DNA from: Bacteroidales bacterium
GTDB taxonomy: Bacteria > Bacteroidota > Bacteroidia > Bacteroidales > JAIPAP01
DNA length: 32,632 nt
Assembly: GCA_021740045.1 (NCBI GenBank)
Contig: JAIPAP010000048.1
Location: forward strand, 1-32,632
Direction of reading: 5' to 3'
Part shown: positions 1-32,632 of the stretch, piece by piece
Layout of the letters: each line of letters starts with the position of its first letter
How positions within the stretch are numbered: position 1 is the first letter of the stretch
Translations under genes and position numbers: made by a program
The notes under the pieces: model-generated
The model's database searches: none
Told to the model about the DNA's origin: nothing
The model's input: only the letters and a program-made list of their open reading frames with translations

Positions 1-108
1 GGCTCAACTTAGCCCTGATGAACCAAAACAGGTTCGCTAGATGCCAATCTTTGATCATCACATAATTGGAGGATTTATAAAACATATCAAAAATGTAATC
101 CCTCAAAA

Positions 109-306
109 CAGCCTGAAAGGCTGAAACAACACAGCACAATACATCAGACGATGAAGATTAGCATTTCGATGTTACCACAGCCTGAAGGGCTGCAACAACA
201 TAGCACAGGGCCCGCCCGAACGAATGAATTCGTTCATTCGGACGGGCAACGCCCTGTGGATATGAAACCCCGTTGTAATGCCAGCCTGAAAGGCTGGAAC
301 AAGATT
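109..306. repeat. Dispersed composite palindromic repeat (GAA-triloop hairpins)
   Basis: Three copies of a short hairpin lie at 109-123, 178-192 and 281-297. Each is a 6-7 bp stem built on CAGCCT/AGGCTG closed by a GAA triloop and followed by AAC-rich sequence. The first two copies continue alike for about 28 bases, ending in a CA-rich tail and AGCAC. Between the second and third copies sits a hairpin with arms CACAGGG (204-210) and CCCTGTG (252-258), enclosing a larger palindrome. From general knowledge this resembles dispersed non-coding repeats common in Bacteroidota intergenic regions. An open frame runs through the repeat into the ABC gene, but I do not regard that part as coding. Confidence 0.75.
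211..246. repeat. 36-nt near-perfect palindrome nested in the repeat
   Basis: The 36 bases are centred on AATT at 227-230. The arms CCCG...GACGGG pair with only three non-Watson-Crick positions (225/232, 221/236, 215/242), all of which are G-T pairs on one strand or the other. The palindrome is itself bracketed by the CACAGGG/CCCTGTG arms at 204-210 and 252-258, so the whole unit can form a long cruciform or RNA hairpin. I read it as the variable core of the dispersed repeat rather than a regulatory site, because it sits more than 100 bases before the likely start of the next gene. Confidence 0.7.
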
Positions 307-2960: not shown

Positions 2961-3548
2961 TCATAAAGGTTTTTTGTGGCTTTCCTGTTCATGCTCTATC
3001 GACTTCTCCAGCCCGTCATACCAATCCTTCCCATACTTCCGGATCAGGGCCTCTTTAAGAAATTTATACACCGGCACGTTCAGCCTTCTTCCCTTCAGCA
3101 AAGCTTTTTCACAAATATGCCAGCGGTGGTAGTTTACCGCTTCATTATGTTGGTTTATGGTAACCCGGGCCGGATACAAATGGCAGGAAATGGGTTTACG
3201 GAAATCCACCTTACCGTCTTCATAGGCTTTTTCGATTGCACAGCCGGCAACTTTGTTCTCATCAAAAATCGCATAGGCACATTCACGGCCATCCACAAGC
3301 GGCGTAACCATATCGCCGTCTTTGTCATAATCGAAGACCCCGGTTTTCTCAATGGCCTCTATACCTTCTCTACGCATATAGGGCTTTATGTCTTCATAAA
3401 TATCGGCCAGGATGCCGGCTTCTTCCCTTTCAAGAGGAGCACCGGCATCACCCTCAACACAACAGGCCCCCTTGCACTTTTTAAGGTCACAAACAAACTT
3501 TACGGAGGCTATATCCTGCGAAACAATGGTATTATCTATCGGTATCAT
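2961..3548 (-). CDS. DUF3109 family cysteine-rich protein
   Basis: This protein of about 195 residues matches the DUF3109 family: the N-terminus MIPIDNTIVSQDIASVKFVC, then a C-x4-C-x3-CC cluster (DLKKCKGACCVEGDAGAPL), and later single cysteines in the contexts RECAYAIF, VAGCAIE, PISCHLYP and HICEKAL. The spaced cysteines suggest a bound metal or Fe-S cluster, as in the related YkgJ/CxxCxxCC proteins; the biochemical role is not established. I use the ATG at 3546-3548 rather than the one at 3590 because family members start with MI-x-IDD/N-T-IVS and the extra 14 residues (VQNKNLLEPYHYH) do not look conserved. It is transcribed divergently from the zinc-ribbon gene. Confidence 0.88.
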   Translation of the reverse strand: MIPIDNTIVSQDIASVKFVCDLKKCKGACCVEGDAGAPLEREEAGILADIYEDIKPYMRREGIEAIEKTGVFDYDKDGDMVTPLVDGRECAYAIFDENKVAGCAIEKAYEDGKVDFRKPISCHLYPARVTINQHNEAVNYHRWHICEKALLKGRRLNVPVYKFLKEALIRKYGKDWYDGLEKSIEHEQESHKKPL

Positions 3549-3675
3549 ATGGTAATGATACGGTTCTAGCAGATTTTTATTTTGAACCACCGAAATTTAG
3601 AAACTTAATTGCACCGGCATTGAAGATTAATAAATTATGTTGTTTTTTTGCAATGCAATTAAAAATAAAATCGCA

Positions 3676-3885
3676 ATGGAAAGAAAAAAGTTCGTATGCC
3701 CGAAATGCGGTAGCCACCAATTTGAAACCGATATGATAAGAGCTACCGGCGGCGCCTTTGCCAAGATCTTTGATATTCAGAATAAAAAATTTACGGCTGT
3801 AACCTGCACACGCTGCCGTTATACCGAATTTTACAAGGGCGATTCCAGTACCCTTGGAAATATCTTTGACTTTTTTACCAGTTAA
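3676..3885 (+). CDS. Small zinc-ribbon putative nucleic-acid-binding protein (COG3478-like)
   Basis: This 69-residue protein consists essentially of one zinc ribbon: CPKC (C8, C11) and CTRC (C44, C47) supply four zinc ligands, with the conserved tail YTEFYKG following the second pair. This pattern fits the family annotated as predicted Zn-ribbon nucleic-acid-binding proteins; the actual target is unknown. The frame is open from 3637, but I start at the ATG at 3676 because the preceding residues (MLFFCNAIKNKIA) come from AT-rich leader sequence and the family begins just before the first CxxC. It lies 61 bases before glyS in the same direction and might be co-expressed, although glyS carries its own promoter-like motif. 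Confidence 0.82.
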   Translation: MERKKFVCPKCGSHQFETDMIRATGGAFAKIFDIQNKKFTAVTCTRCRYTEFYKGDSSTLGNIFDFFTS

Positions 3886-3934
3886 GGCGGCGGCATTTAA
3901 CATATCATAAACATAAGGCAACCAACAAATTTTA

Positions 3935-3942
3935 TATTTTTG
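3935..3942 (+). promoter_or_regulatory. -7 promoter motif TATTTTTG immediately before glyS
   Basis: TATTTTTG fits the Bacteroidota -7 consensus TAnnTTTG perfectly and ends four bases before the glyS ATG. If it is used, transcription would begin at or within a few bases of the start codon, giving a leaderless or nearly leaderless mRNA. I see no good -33 TTG at the usual spacing, so the call rests on the -7 motif alone. Confidence 0.45.
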
Positions 3943-3946
3943 CGCC

Positions 3947-5479
3947 ATGGCAAATCACGAAGATCTATTTAAGAAAATAATTGCCCATGCCAAGGAGTAT
4001 GGGTTTATTTTTCAGTCGAGCGAGATATACGACGGATTAAGTGCTGTTTATGACTACGGCCAATATGGTAGCGAGCTTAAAGCCAATATCATGGATTATT
4101 GGTGGAAAGCGATGGTTCAGTACCATGAGAATATTGTGGGCATCGATTCGGCCATCTTTATGCATCCCCGTGTATGGAAAGCCTCAGGTCACCTCGAGGC
4201 CTTTAATGATCCGTTGATCGATAACAAGGATTCCAAAAAGCGATACCGTGCTGATCAGTTGGTGGAAGATCACATGGCCAAGATCGAACAGAAAGTCGAT
4301 AAAGAGGTTAAGAAAGCCAAAAAACGCTTTGGCGACGAGTTTGATGAAGAACAATTTGTAACCACTCATCCGCGGGTGCTTAAATATAAAGAGCAGATAG
4401 AAACCATCAATAACCGCTTGGTTAAAGATTTGGAAAACGAAGATTTCGATGACTTGAAAAAGCTGATCGAAGAGTTGGAAATTGCCTGTCCGGTATCCGG
4501 CTCCAAGAACTGGACAGAAGTGCGGCAATTCAACCTGATGTTTTCAACGCAGATGGGTTCGGTAAACGAAGGCGCCAATCAAATCTACCTCCGCCCCGAA
4601 ACGGCCCAGGGTATTTTTGTAAACTATTTGAATGTGCAGAAAACCGGCCGCATGAAGATCCCGTTTGGCATTGCCCAAATCGGAAAGGCCTTTCGTAACG
4701 AGATTGTAGCCCGCCAATTCATCTTCCGCATGCGCGAATTCGAGCAAATGGAAATGCAATATTTCGTGAAACCCGGAACTGAAATGGAATGGTTTGAGTT
4801 CTGGAAGAACGAACGGGTTAAGTGGCATAAGTCATTGGGTATACCGGATGACAAATTCCGCTTGCACGAGCACGACAAACTGGCCCATTATGCCAATGCC
4901 GCCTACGATATTGAATTTAATTTCCCCATGGGCTTCAAGGAGCTGGAAGGCATCCATTCGCGCACCAATTTCGACCTGAGCGCCCATCAGAATGAATCGG
5001 GGCGCAAAATACAATATTACGACAACGACACCCAGGATAGCTATGTTCCTTATGTAGTGGAAACTTCCATTGGACTCGACCGTATGTTCCTGGCCATCAT
5101 TACCCAGGCCTACACCGAAGAAAAGCTGGAAGACGGCTCCGAGCGTGTTGTCATGAAAATACCACCGATCCTGGCTCCGATAAAGGCGGCTGTTTTACCC
5201 CTGGTGAAAAAAGACGGCTTGCCTGAAAAGGCCCGCGAAATTATGGACAACCTCAAATACGATTACATGTGCCATTACGAGGAAAAAGACACTATCGGCA
5301 GGCGTTACCGCCGCATGGATGCCATAGGCACACCCTATTCCATTACCGTTGATCATCAAACCCTCGAAGATAATACGGTAACCATACGCGAGCGCGACTC
5401 CATGAAGCAGGACCGGATTGATATTGAAAAGATTCCTGAAATCCTGAGGGATAGACTCAAGCCGGTAAAAGTTGACTAA
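3947..5479 (+). CDS. glyS: Glycine--tRNA ligase (homodimeric class II)
   Basis: This enzyme charges tRNA-Gly with glycine in the cytoplasm. The 510-residue protein is the single-chain eukaryote/Gram-positive-like form, not the alpha/beta form. Visible markers are the N-terminal SSEIYDGLSAVYDYGQYGSEL, the motif 1 region, YLRPETAQGIFVNYLN, the motif 2 block FRNEIVARQFIFRMREFEQMEMQYF, the glycine-pocket region RTNFDLSAHQ, and motif 3 ETSIGLDRMFLA. A lysine/glutamate-rich coiled insertion (about residues 95-150) follows the N-terminal domain. The C-terminal anticodon-binding domain starts around 405 (PPILAPIKAAVLPL). The start gives the family-typical N-terminus. The stop overlaps the end of convergent pth by four bases. 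Confidence 0.97.
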   Translation: MANHEDLFKKIIAHAKEYGFIFQSSEIYDGLSAVYDYGQYGSELKANIMDYWWKAMVQYHENIVGIDSAIFMHPRVWKASGHLEAFNDPLIDNKDSKKRYRADQLVEDHMAKIEQKVDKEVKKAKKRFGDEFDEEQFVTTHPRVLKYKEQIETINNRLVKDLENEDFDDLKKLIEELEIACPVSGSKNWTEVRQFNLMFSTQMGSVNEGANQIYLRPETAQGIFVNYLNVQKTGRMKIPFGIAQIGKAFRNEIVARQFIFRMREFEQMEMQYFVKPGTEMEWFEFWKNERVKWHKSLGIPDDKFRLHEHDKLAHYANAAYDIEFNFPMGFKELEGIHSRTNFDLSAHQNESGRKIQYYDNDTQDSYVPYVVETSIGLDRMFLAIITQAYTEEKLEDGSERVVMKIPPILAPIKAAVLPLVKKDGLPEKAREIMDNLKYDYMCHYEEKDTIGRRYRRMDAIGTPYSITVDHQTLEDNTVTIRERDSMKQDRIDIEKIPEILRDRLKPVKVD

Positions 5480-6848: not shown

Positions 6849-7790
6849 TTATTTACCATCAAAGCGAAATAACGAACTTATCGATTCATAATTATGTACC
6901 CTGCTGATCACATCGGCCAATAAGTCGGCTGTTGATACAACAGTGATCTTATCACTTTCATGATCAAGGGGAATGGTATCGGTAACGATTAATTCGGTAA
7001 ACGCTGATTGTTCAATTTTTTTGTGTGCATCTTTTGAAAGGATGGGATGCGTTGCAAACCCTCTCACGCTATTAGCGCCTTTGTCCATCATCATATTGGC
7101 GGCTTTGGTAATGGTGCCGCCTGTATCGATAATGTCATCGATCAAAATCACATCTTTGCCTTTCACATCACCCACCAAAGCCATTTTTTCAACTTCATTG
7201 GGTTGCGTTCGCTGCTTATAACAAATCACGAAAGTGGTACCCAGAAAACGAGCATAAGCTGCGGCCCGGCGTGTTCCACCGGTATCGGGCGATGCCGTAA
7301 TGGGATTGTCGAGGTCTAATTTCCTGATATAGGGAATAAAAATAGAAGAAGCATAAAGATGATCAACCGGAATATCAAAAAAGCCCTGGATCTGGTCGGC
7401 ATGCAAATCAATGGTGATCACCCGGCTTACTCCGGCGGCCGTGAGCAAGTTGGCAACCAATTTAGCCCCAATGGAAACCCTTGGCTTATCTTTTCGATCC
7501 TGACGGGCATAACCAAAATAGGGGATCACGGCTACTATTTGCCTTGCCGATGCCCTTTTTGCCGCATCGATCATCAACAAAAGCTCAAAAAAATTGTCAG
7601 TGGGGGCAAAAGTGGATTGGACAATAAACACATCATTTCCCCTAACATTTTCCTCAAAAGATGGTTGAAATTCACCGTCGAAGAAATCAGTGACCACCGA
7701 CTTGCCCAGGTTTTTACCATAGCTTTCGGCGATACGCTCTGCCAGATAACGGCTAGCCCTTCCCGAAAAAATATTAACCAAACTTGACAT
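6849..7790 (-). CDS. prs: Ribose-phosphate pyrophosphokinase (PRPP synthetase)
   Basis: Prs makes phosphoribosyl pyrophosphate from ribose-5-phosphate and ATP for nucleotide, His and Trp synthesis. The protein (313 residues from the chosen start) shows the flexible loop region PYFGYARQDRKDKPR, the metal/ribose region ITIDLHADQIQGFF, ASPDTGGTRRA and the PRPP-binding loop ILIDDIIDTGGT. I use the ATG at 7788-7790 (MSSLVNIFSGRASRYLAE) rather than an upstream one at 7886. The longer version would add 32 non-family residues, and a good promoter (7832-7862) lies inside that extension. It heads the prs-rplY transcription unit. Confidence 0.97.
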   Translation of the reverse strand: MSSLVNIFSGRASRYLAERIAESYGKNLGKSVVTDFFDGEFQPSFEENVRGNDVFIVQSTFAPTDNFFELLLMIDAAKRASARQIVAVIPYFGYARQDRKDKPRVSIGAKLVANLLTAAGVSRVITIDLHADQIQGFFDIPVDHLYASSIFIPYIRKLDLDNPITASPDTGGTRRAAAYARFLGTTFVICYKQRTQPNEVEKMALVGDVKGKDVILIDDIIDTGGTITKAANMMMDKGANSVRGFATHPILSKDAHKKIEQSAFTELIVTDTIPLDHESDKITVVSTADLLADVISRVHNYESISSLFRFDGK

Positions 7791-30181: not shown

Positions 30182-32464
30182 ATGAAACGGATTCTGCGAA
30201 AAGACGCACTGAACTACCATTCGGTGGGAAAACCCGGCAAAATTGAGGTTGTTCCCACCAAGCCTTACAGCAGTCAGCGAGACCTTTCAATGGCATATAC
30301 CCCTGGTGTTGCCGAACCCTGTAAAGAAATCCAGAATAATCCTGATGATGCTTTTAAATATACAGCCAAAGGTAATCTGGTGGCTGTTATTTCAAATGGC
30401 ACGGCAGTTCTCGGGCTGGGCGATATTGGCACCCTGGCCGGTAAACCGGTTATGGAGGGAAAAGGCCTGTTATTTAAAGTGTTTTCGGATATTGATGTAT
30501 TCGATATTGAATTAACCCACAAGGACCCCGACAAATTCGTGGAAACCTGTAAGGCTATGGCGCCTACCTTCGGCGGTGTAAACCTTGAAGATATAAAAGC
30601 CCCCGAATGTTTTGAAATTGAGGACCGTCTTAAAAAAGAAATCGACATTCCGGTGATGCATGACGACCAGCACGGAACAGCTATCATTACCGCAGCCGGA
30701 TTATTGAACGCCCTTGAGATCAATGGTAAAAAACTTGAAGATATTAAGCTGGTGGTAAACGGCGCCGGAGCCAGTGGTATTTCATGCACCCGGCTTTATG
30801 TTTCGCTGGGACTGAAGCCCGAGAATATTGTGATGCTCGACAGCAAAGGTGTTATCCGTAAAGATCGCACTGACCTGCATGAGACCAAACGGGAATTTGC
30901 CACCGATCGCGATTTACACACCCTGGAAGAAGCCCTTGAGGGAGCCGATATGTTCATGGGCCTTTCTGTAGGTGGTGTTTTAAAGCCTCATATGCTTGAA
31001 AAGATGGCCAAAGACCCCATTGTATTCGCTTGTGCCAATCCGGTTCCGGAGATATCCTATGATGAGGCCATAGCTACCCGCAAAGATGTGATTATGGCTA
31101 CCGGCCGCTCCGACTTCCCCAACCAGGTTAACAATGTGTTGGGCTTTCCCTTTATTTTCCGGGGCGCCCTTGATGTGAGAGCAACAGCCATTAATGAGGA
31201 AATGAAGCTGGCTGCTTCCAAAGCGCTGGCCGAACTGGCCAAACAACCTGTTCCCGAGGAAGTTAATATTGCTTACCAGATTGCAAACCTGCGTTTTGGT
31301 AAAGAATACATCATTCCCAAGCCTAGCGATCCACGCTTGATAACCTACATAGCACCCGCAGTTGCTAAGGCTGCTATGGACACAGGTGTCGCCAGGGTTA
31401 AAATAGAAGACTGGGAAGCCTACCGTGAATCCCTCAGGAAACGTATGGGGCTCAGTAATCCATTAATCAAGCAGATCAAGGCCAGGGCCAAGAATAACCC
31501 CAAACGGGTCGCCTTTGCCGAAGCCGATAATTATAAAATGTTGAAAGCTGCCGAGATCATCCTGGACGAAAAAATAGCTACCCCCATCCTTATTGGTAAT
31601 AAGCCGAGAATCGAAGAGCTCATTAATAAGCATGATTTTGAACTCAGCGGAATTGAGATTATCGATCCGCGTTCCGAAGAAGAAGCTAAACGCAGGCATC
31701 AGTTTGCCGAATTATATTTTAAAAAACGTAAACGCCGTGGAGTAACCATGAGCATGGCCGAAGAGCGAATGCATCAATGTAATTTCTTTGGCCCCATGCT
31801 GGTTGAAACCGGATATGCCAGCGCGATGTTGAGCGGTATGACACGGAATTACCCCGATACGATCCGCCCGGCGCTGCAAATCATCGGGAAAAAACCCGAA
31901 GCCTCCATCATATCGGGTATGTATATTATCAGCACCAAACAAGGCCCCTACTTCTTTGCTGATACCACAGTCAATATGAACCCAACCACGGAACAGCTCG
32001 TAGAAATAACCCTCCAAACAGCCAACGCCGTTAGGCAGTTCAATTGGGAGCCCCGCATAGCCATGCTTTCGTATTCGAACTTCGGCTCGAACAAAGGCAG
32101 AATTCCTACATTGGTAAGAGATGCCGTTTCAATTCTTCATCGCGATCATCCTAATCTTGTTGTAGATGGAGAATTACAGGCTAATTTCGCGGTAAACCAC
32201 GAGTTGCTCATGGAAAACTTCCCCTTTTCCAAACTTAAGGAAGGGCCGGCCAACACTTTGATATTTCCCTACCTCACAGCCGGTAACATAGCCTACAAAC
32301 TGATGCAGGAAATGGGCAGCGCCGAGGCTTATGGTCCCATACTCATGGGATTAAATAAATCGGTACATGTGCTGCAAATGGGAAGCAGCGTGAATGAAAT
32401 CGTCAATATGACCGCCATCGCTGTTATTGATGCACAGTGTGTAGAAGAAGGAATTTGTAAATAA
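30182..32464 (+). CDS. maeB: NADP-dependent malic enzyme with C-terminal phosphotransacetylase-like domain
   Basis: MaeB decarboxylates malate to pyruvate with NADP reduction. The 760-residue length is that of the fused MaeB type. Residues 1 to about 430 form the malic enzyme: AYTPGVAEPCKEI with the catalytic Tyr, GLGDIGTLAGKPVMEGKGLLFKVFSDIDVFDIE with the catalytic Lys, VMHDDQHGTA with the metal aspartates, and the Rossmann motif VVNGAGASGISC. From about 435 is the phosphotransacetylase-like domain (KNNPKRVAFAEADNYKMLKAAEII, ATPILIGNK, PFLTAG-like FPYLTAGNIAYKLMQ). In characterised relatives it does not make acetyl phosphate but binds acetyl-CoA as an allosteric signal; that role is inferred here. 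It is divergent from ruvA. Confidence 0.97.
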   Translation: MKRILRKDALNYHSVGKPGKIEVVPTKPYSSQRDLSMAYTPGVAEPCKEIQNNPDDAFKYTAKGNLVAVISNGTAVLGLGDIGTLAGKPVMEGKGLLFKVFSDIDVFDIELTHKDPDKFVETCKAMAPTFGGVNLEDIKAPECFEIEDRLKKEIDIPVMHDDQHGTAIITAAGLLNALEINGKKLEDIKLVVNGAGASGISCTRLYVSLGLKPENIVMLDSKGVIRKDRTDLHETKREFATDRDLHTLEEALEGADMFMGLSVGGVLKPHMLEKMAKDPIVFACANPVPEISYDEAIATRKDVIMATGRSDFPNQVNNVLGFPFIFRGALDVRATAINEEMKLAASKALAELAKQPVPEEVNIAYQIANLRFGKEYIIPKPSDPRLITYIAPAVAKAAMDTGVARVKIEDWEAYRESLRKRMGLSNPLIKQIKARAKNNPKRVAFAEADNYKMLKAAEIILDEKIATPILIGNKPRIEELINKHDFELSGIEIIDPRSEEEAKRRHQFAELYFKKRKRRGVTMSMAEERMHQCNFFGPMLVETGYASAMLSGMTRNYPDTIRPALQIIGKKPEASIISGMYIISTKQGPYFFADTTVNMNPTTEQLVEITLQTANAVRQFNWEPRIAMLSYSNFGSNKGRIPTLVRDAVSILHRDHPNLVVDGELQANFAVNHELLMENFPFSKLKEGPANTLIFPYLTAGNIAYKLMQEMGSAEAYGPILMGLNKSVHVLQMGSSVNEIVNMTAIAVIDAQCVEEGICK

Positions 32465-32480
32465 ACCTTAAAGCCAAATT

Positions 32481-32504
32481 AGCCACAGGGTATTGCCTGT
32501 GGCT
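32481..32504 (+). terminator. Hairpin after maeB, possible terminator or repeat arm
   Basis: A perfect 9-bp stem AGCCACAGG (32481-32489) and CCTGTGGCT (32496-32504) with a 6-base loop lies 17 bases after the maeB stop. No T run follows, so termination would be weak. The arms resemble the TAGCACAGGG/CCCTGTGG arms of the left-edge repeat (201-259), so it may instead be part of the dispersed element. Confidence 0.5.
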
Positions 32505-32522
32505 TGATAAGCGGACGGAATA

Positions 32523-32632
32523 GCAACTCCGAAGGAGTTGAACTATTTTGAAAAAGACTGAATATTCGAAATAATAAGGATTTGTGGTAGTGATGGGATA
32601 GGTGGGGGCGGAAAAAAGCTTCGCTTTTTTCC
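32523..32632. repeat. Dispersed palindromic repeats at the right edge (GAA triloops)
   Basis: CAACTCC-GAA-GGAGTTG at 32524-32540 is a 7-bp stem with a GAA triloop followed by AAC, the same architecture as the left-edge hairpins but with a different stem. A second palindrome, at 32610-32632, is a 10-bp stem GGAAAAAAGC/GCTTTTTTCC with a TTC loop, that is GAA on the minus strand, and its last base is the last base of the window. No gene is seen here. Confidence 0.7.

Follow-up and report, generated by a model that had tools for sequence, protein, structure and literature searches.

A composite hairpin repeat of Bacteroidota as a likely DNA partner of IS200-like Y1 transposases

Three short hairpins at the left edge of a Bacteroidales contig are, we think probably, building blocks of a non-autonomous, REP-like repeat of composite structure. 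Its likely cognate enzyme is a HuH/Y1 transposase with a single domain, IS200-like and of the subclass 1.2 type. The composite repeat is thereby a likely DNA partner for a transposase group that has been reported without one. The stretch of DNA analysed here (the window, 32,632 nt) is the entire contig C55 of the source assembly (G000; 3.90 Mb, 161 contigs).

The hairpins that a sequence-only reading had picked out in the window are present as it described them, with the stem CAGCCT/AGGCTG and the GAA loop common to all three and an AAC-containing tail on each (Table 1). The third is one C-G pair longer than the other two; in the second, an A-to-G change turns a T-A pair into a T.G wobble, and here a stem of 5 bp is the one favoured by the folding program. 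Over 31 nt, the first two copies share 90% identity. That reading had also described the stems as covarying, a claim that does not hold for the window copies taken by themselves: with the stem letters the same in all three apart from that one change, they document near identity and not covariation.

The hairpins belong to a larger unit of about 90 nt. Hairpin A (6- to 7-bp stem, GAA loop) is followed by a linker of about 11 nt ending in [TCA]A[GA]C (for example AAAGAACACAGC), a hairpin B (for example CCAGGGC-AWC-GCCCTGG, from other copies of the same genome) and, after some 20 nt of spacer, a hairpin A' oriented as A is; units also form chains with a period of 67 to 69 nt. In the window, the first A is followed by a stretch that has no clean hairpin B and then by a second A, B and A', a 69-nt direct chain in which the covariance models R1 and R2 (see below) recognize a complete composite and R1 additionally matches positions 106-198 (E = 1.8e-6). 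Hairpin B and a further copy at the right edge come in addition to the three hairpins first noticed. As DNA, positions 203-258 fold at -22.9 kcal/mol (z = -7.3). A palindrome of the CCGAACGAATGAATTCGTTCATTCGG type lies within the hairpin B loop in two element copies (window 212-247 and the copy on contig C28), as if one repeat had been inserted into another. It may represent a second repeat family; the core of the window palindrome occurs once in the assembly at up to 3 mismatches, and a similar palindrome is present in the C28 copy. Both contig ends lie in or near a repeat, since the first 19 nt match a reversed copy and a further copy stands at the right edge.

Table 1. Repeat features located in the window (z, single-stranded DNA fold score; E, covariance model match)
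Feature	Position	Strand	Remarks
Reversed element, 5' end, truncated	1..19	-	19/19 nt equal to the element on contig C19 plus its 5' flank, in inverse orientation; contig begins within the element
Hairpin A, copy 1	109..123	+	6-bp stem, GAA loop; z -4.8
Tail AAACAACACAGCACA and stretch in hairpin B position	124..177	+	no clean hairpin; 31-nt direct repeat
Complete composite A-linker-B-spacer-A'	175..302	+	R1 E 2.5e-10; R2 E 1.1e-11
Hairpin A, copy 2	178..192	+	T.G wobble at loop; z -2.4
Linker CAACAACATAG	193..203	+	with C204 gives the foot tetranucleotide TAGC (201-204)
Hairpin B	204..258	+	arms 204-211/251-258; 36-nt palindrome in loop (212-247); R2 alignment
Hairpin A', copy 3	281..297	+	7-bp stem, GAA loop; z -3.9
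Right-edge element	32460..32545	+	degenerate hairpin A on the left, then a B-type hairpin and, at 32524-32540, A' CAACTCCGAAGGAGTTG; R2 E 4.1e-5

Across the assembly, the hairpins are more frequent than chance would give, which was one of the checks that the sequence-only reading had called for. The exact motif CAGCCTGAARGGCTG occurs three times, all within the window (reversed control, 0), and the motif with its tail (CAGCCTGAARGGCTGNAACA) has 17 matches at up to 3 mismatches, versus 1 for the control. R1, a covariance model built from seven copies of this genome, finds at least 14 matches here at E < 1e-5 (seven being its building copies, and two pairs having one hairpin in common), and R2 at least 18; as part of the candidates was scored, copy numbers from both models are lower bounds. 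The copies are scattered over several contigs and differ in their flanking sequence. Between those on contigs C52 and C6, identity is 93.8% along a 129-nt stretch, beyond which the match does not continue in the 250-nt flanks compared.

Covariation becomes visible once these further copies are included. Among the seven copies, pairing is kept in 98.6% of cells, and 9 of 21 pairs are changed on both sides, compared with a mean of 4.5 in shuffles (0/500 as high as 9), in a MAFFT alignment with the structure drawn from those same sequences. Among 110 distinct copies from the source genome and its relatives, in an alignment that had been fitted to the structure, 92.2% of cells pair, 20 of 21 pairs are changed on both sides, and the covariation score is 0.562 (0.170 when shuffled, at most 0.094 with slid partners). 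Neither of the outcomes that would have spoken against the sequence-only reading, a chance-level hairpin count or copies identical without covariation, came about, and the compensatory changes support the proposed selection on a folded nucleic acid. Hairpin A has a GAA loop in 99/110 rows; for A', the loop is GAA in 73/110 and GTA in 9/110, with about 22 rows lacking A'. The foot of hairpin B is TAGC, CAGC, TAAC or AAGC in 100/110 rows and fits [TCA]A[GA]C in 101/110. The GT[AG]G foot was seen in 1/110 rows beside hairpin A and in 8/110 in the linker ahead of hairpin B. The proposed REP-type character therefore stands as regards dispersed, multi-copy palindromes with conserved pairing and falls as regards the foot. 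GNA loops are described as giving extraordinarily stable DNA mini-hairpins in the part of PMC4686876 that concerns them, and single-stranded DNA is for this reason the more plausible selected form.

The repeat is spread through Bacteroidota. R1 has matches in 15 of 41 genomes including the source, i.e., in 14 of 40 relatives, two of which (G002 and G010) are counted by one match each with E above 1e-4. R2, for which 116 matches were used (110 of them distinct, and in part Y1-flanking repeats), has matches in at least 34 of 198 genomes sampled across the phylum, the source included. Copies occur in both orientations, in tandem arrays and in outward-facing pairs. Five contigs of G013 have a unit made of two repeats that face each other, at 89-94% identity; some upstream flank is common among the copies read, so this recurrence is not clean evidence of insertion. 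Regular arrays, mostly of 67-nt period, lie at 3403-4070 and 6925-7326 of G035:C122 (L079), on either side of a 776-aa open frame that, we presume, encodes something resembling an FG-GAP repeat protein; the long open frames that the arrays traverse are probably not genuine.

What ties the repeat to a transposase is its placement. In 12 repeat-bearing relatives, an R1 repeat is present at 9 of the 30 Y1 loci fetched (39 Y1 matches listed), and a profile made from 11 proteins (A3) finds genes in 164/295 genomes of the order. We examined 88 of the 91 strongest A3 matches; those omitted are G016:C384 and G017:C75, with repeats present at both, and one locus within the stretch of its neighbour (L181). 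At R2 E <= 0.01, a repeat lies within 1.5 kb of 79/88 Y1 loci and 1/20 control regions taken 12 kb away on the same contigs, leaving 9/88 loci without one. Because R2 was trained partly on Y1-flanking repeats, we also give the count for genomes outside its training, which is 71/79 (against the 1/20 controls, Fisher, P = 3.7e-13). At the same threshold, repeats are found at 13/22 lower-scoring A3 matches and at 1/18 distant or other Y1 genes. A second collection has a repeat at 79/80 Y1 loci; there is some overlap between the two locus sets (L276 is the same as L136, and L270 was used in training), and they include neighbouring genes (L154/L162, L191/L197). Its hosts include Chryseobacterium, Kaistella, Spirosoma, Dyadobacter and Marivirga, together with a few metagenome bins labelled outside Bacteroidota, where binning errors are possible.

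The arrangement is oriented and tight: the gene has a repeat pointing towards it on either side, often no more than about 10 nt away. Inward-pointing repeats lie no more than 150 nt away on both sides of the gene at 66/80 loci, upstream only at 2, downstream only at 6 and on neither side at 6, compared with opposite-orientation repeats upstream at 10/80 and downstream at 14/80. A model-free script, which searches the 150 nt touching the gene at the 80 loci for GAA-loop hairpins with a stem of at least 5, gives the same picture: 50 sense and 4 antisense loci upstream, 54 antisense and 7 sense loci downstream, with the upstream sense and downstream antisense hairpins both present at 42 loci and either at 62. 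The density of such hairpins is 6.56/kb beside the gene, 0.09/kb at 750-900 nt away and 0.08/kb inside the gene. With a stem of at least 6, GAA hairpins occur anywhere in the locus at 45/88 loci, versus 3/18 for other Y1 genes and 1/20 for controls. Per genome, gene and repeat co-occur (10 with both, 5 with the repeat only, 2 with the gene only, 24 with neither; P = 1.3e-4, at a gene cut of >=180 bits picked once the list had been seen). Repeats around a tnpA_Y1 gene together with copies elsewhere in the genome, the mark of a REPtron, are thus observed in relatives, and no such gene was found in G000.

Several loci show other arrangements. In the single-contig genome G213, the Y1 gene of L162 (G213:C1:1393030-1396479) is present twice with identical scores, the two places being separated by 847 nt and both within repeats of the same period, as a tandem cassette. 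Other subclass 1.2-like Y1 genes (L102, L103, L106, L226 and L238) sit amid other hairpins, of AGGCTGAAGCCT, CAGCCTGAAGGCTG, GTA-loop and CCCCGAAGGGG types; those of L226 and L238 are matched in part by R2.

Proteins from two groups of repeat-flanked loci are IS200-like Y1 enzymes of about 150 aa with the motif YIxNQxxHH, and in the 11-protein A3 alignment Y115 is invariant and N118, Q119, H122 and H123 are nearly so. Five of them score 43.7-63.8 bits against the NCBIfam IS200 model NF033573 (cut-off 55; two of the five fall below it), and the nearest solved structures are those of the ISHp608 transposase (2a6m, E = 2.5e-15; 2vhg, E = 2.7e-15). For these five proteins, a RAYT was rejected as the cognate enzyme: the REP_Tyr_transpos model NF047646 lists two of the five, at no more than 25.2 bits against a cut-off of 80, a cut-off passed by one of eight proteins scanned, that of G000:C155. 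The suggested link to Y1/RAYT transposases accordingly survives in its Y1 half, strongly so in relatives, and not in its RAYT half. In its division of TnpA_Y1 into classes, PMC6006769 gives subclass 1.2 as carrying Y---Q--HH, with a median of 148 aa, from Cyanobacteria and Bacteroidetes, and its entries for this subclass read low copy, REP "no", without IS properties and generally without typical terminal IS200 structures. The proteins found here have the IS200-like core and Y---Q--HH, and in motif, size and host they agree with that account of subclass 1.2.

In the specific case of the source genome, four Y1_Tnp genes were found, all outside the window, in agreement with the sequence-only reading, which saw no transposase gene there. 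Its expectation of a Y1 gene flanked by the same hairpins is borne out in relatives and not here: none of the four has a GAA repeat at E <= 0.01 within 1.5 kb on each side or up to the contig end. The gene on C155 is a RAYT by NCBIfam (NF047646, 96.8 bits) and is without repeats; that on C45 lies near a contig end. On C14 (L025, 3100-4434), the Y1 gene stands among GGTGCAGCGCACC repeats, with GGTGC-RGC-GCACC hairpins on both sides, several of them then followed by GAAAKATTTATAG; these repeats form another family, distinct from the GAA-loop one and accompanied by a subclass 1.2-like gene. On C51 (L027, 4732-8268, minus strand), a frame of 1178 codons comprises an Eco57I/N6-methylase, a Y1_Tnp domain, low-complexity stretches and a TaqI_C domain, with CAAGGGGCTGTAGCCCCTTG palindromes in the repeated low-complexity stretches that follow the in-frame Y1 part; apparently, a RAYT-like gene and its hairpins have been inserted in frame into a restriction-modification gene. 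The copies in the window's genome look orphaned, the cognate gene being lost or lying in an assembly gap.

Not all of the evidence points the same way. Among repeat-bearing genomes, no repeat was found beside 4/4 Y1 genes examined in G000, 3/4 in G004, 1/1 in G018 and 3/7 in G029. On the Y1 tree, which has weak deep support, the genes with the element do not form one clade (7 changes, with 139/500 shuffles as low). The best match is a Y1 flank of the same genome for 32/40 dispersed repeats, 25 of these 32 coming from G035; this cognate-variant test gives 0/4 in G017 and 0/3 in G012, and 38/2000 label shuffles are as high as the overall count. Comparison of G013 and G129 at two loci yielded no clean empty site: at L086 the element coincides with a break in the G129 assembly, and at L263 G013 is without about 976 nt that comprise the element plus an apparent neighbouring gene.

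With respect to known systems, the repeats resemble the REP/BIME/REPIN sequences and TnpA_REP (RAYT) genes of REPtrons, as far as PMC6006769 and PMC8266576 characterize these, in being small multi-copy palindromes that occur singly, in tandem and inverted, and in being gathered beside a Y1 HuH gene of low within-genome identity. In contrast to REPs, they lack the GT[AG]G foot, combine two dissimilar hairpins in each unit and have a GAA or GTA triloop, and the cognate-type enzyme is IS200-like with Y---Q--HH, unlike TnpA_REP with its NP-type Y motif. REPtron-like flanks without that foot, beside an enzyme other than a RAYT, lead us to place the system outside the canonical REP family, though it probably works in a manner like that of REP and TnpA_REP. 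The enzymes share with subclass 1.2, in the traits that PMC6006769 sets out for it, the IS200-like type, the size of about 150 aa, the DH[IV]H, WQ and YIxNQxxHH motifs and the Bacteroidetes hosts; they depart from the tabulated REP "no" in that repeats lie beside most of the genes examined here. A HuH/Y1 enzyme with hairpin DNA also recalls the ends of IS200/IS605 elements (ISHp608, ISDra2), from which the repeats differ as inverted composites that also occur in gene-less copies. The class 3 TnpA_Y1 of Planctomycetes and Acidobacteria are similar in their Y----Q motif and in the multi-copy "atypical" hairpins around the gene, which resemble both IS and REPtrons in the account given by PMC6006769; they differ in their CnGA foot and in belonging to other phyla, and only 10-24 proteins of this class have been described.

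An ordinary IS200-type insertion sequence would offer another explanation, with the repeats as its terminal repeats and the gene-less copies as MITE- or PATE-like deletion derivatives, without any REP-like (domesticated) behaviour. The close, inward-facing flanks of the gene are what this would produce, and the duplicated gene of G213 and some same-genome gene pairs at 95-97% identity (G185, G191) are likewise in its favour. Yet 22 same-genome pairs have a median identity of 45%, with 2 at >=95% (54 loci, the G213 pair and the second G194 gene being outside the count), which is not typical of IS copies, with the two identically scoring places of G213 pointing the other way. The ends of IS200/IS605 elements are hairpins on one strand, whereas the repeats here are inverted, and the tandem chains and outward-facing pairs also speak against terminal repeats. 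The low-copy entry without IS properties that PMC6006769 has for subclass 1.2 is a further argument on that side, and we regard the ordinary insertion sequence as possible but doubtful.

Spread mainly via recombination, replication slippage and gene conversion, in place of a transposase, could account for the 67-nt-period arrays of G035:C122, the direct chain in the window and the G013 units with some common flank; it fits poorly with the unlike flanks of the G000 copies on their different contigs, leaves unexplained why the repeats are placed so closely, and in a set orientation, around one transposase family, and seems improbable to us. We give very little credence to a role as RNA elements of adjacent genes, be they terminators, attenuators or riboregulators. 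The window copies do lie upstream of an open frame, which we take to be that of an ABC transporter ATPase, but no Rfam family matches the window at gathering score, both orientations and arrays are seen among the copies, the GNA triloop is known for its stability in DNA, and the enrichment is beside one transposase family. Chance palindromes or plain local duplication, to which the nearly identical letters of the three window stems might point, are ruled out by genome-wide copies above control counts and by the compensatory stem changes.

On the preferred reading, that of a REP-like repeat with a cognate Y1 transposase, TnpA would bind hairpins with a GNA loop when the DNA is single-stranded, as it is for example on the lagging-strand template, and might cut near them, and the repeats would be moved or multiplied by it as is thought for TnpA_REP on REPs. 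Hairpin families may go by transposase subgroup: the group described here has GAA-loop composites, and by eye other subgroups have GGTGCRGCGCACC, AGGCTGAAGCCT and hairpins with a GTA loop nearby, which suggests a general rule. We lean towards the view that subclass 1.2 TnpA as a whole is a second, RAYT-independent REP-like line in Bacteroidota, in which each subgroup would have its own hairpin family, recognized via stable GNA-loop single-stranded DNA mini-hairpins. Subclass 1.2 has hitherto had no known substrate, because it was described without IS properties and REP partners, and among the papers listed by searches of the open-access PMC library, none pairs such repeats with it in its title or abstract.

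If the composite hairpins are the substrate, subclass 1.2 would become testable at once, by cleavage assays on the flanking DNA. Transposases with private hairpin repeats would then have arisen outside the RAYT line, and a Bacteroidota intergenic repeat family would be accounted for, including contig breaks in assemblies such as those at both window ends. Such a system would also represent a natural use of GNA mini-hairpin DNA.
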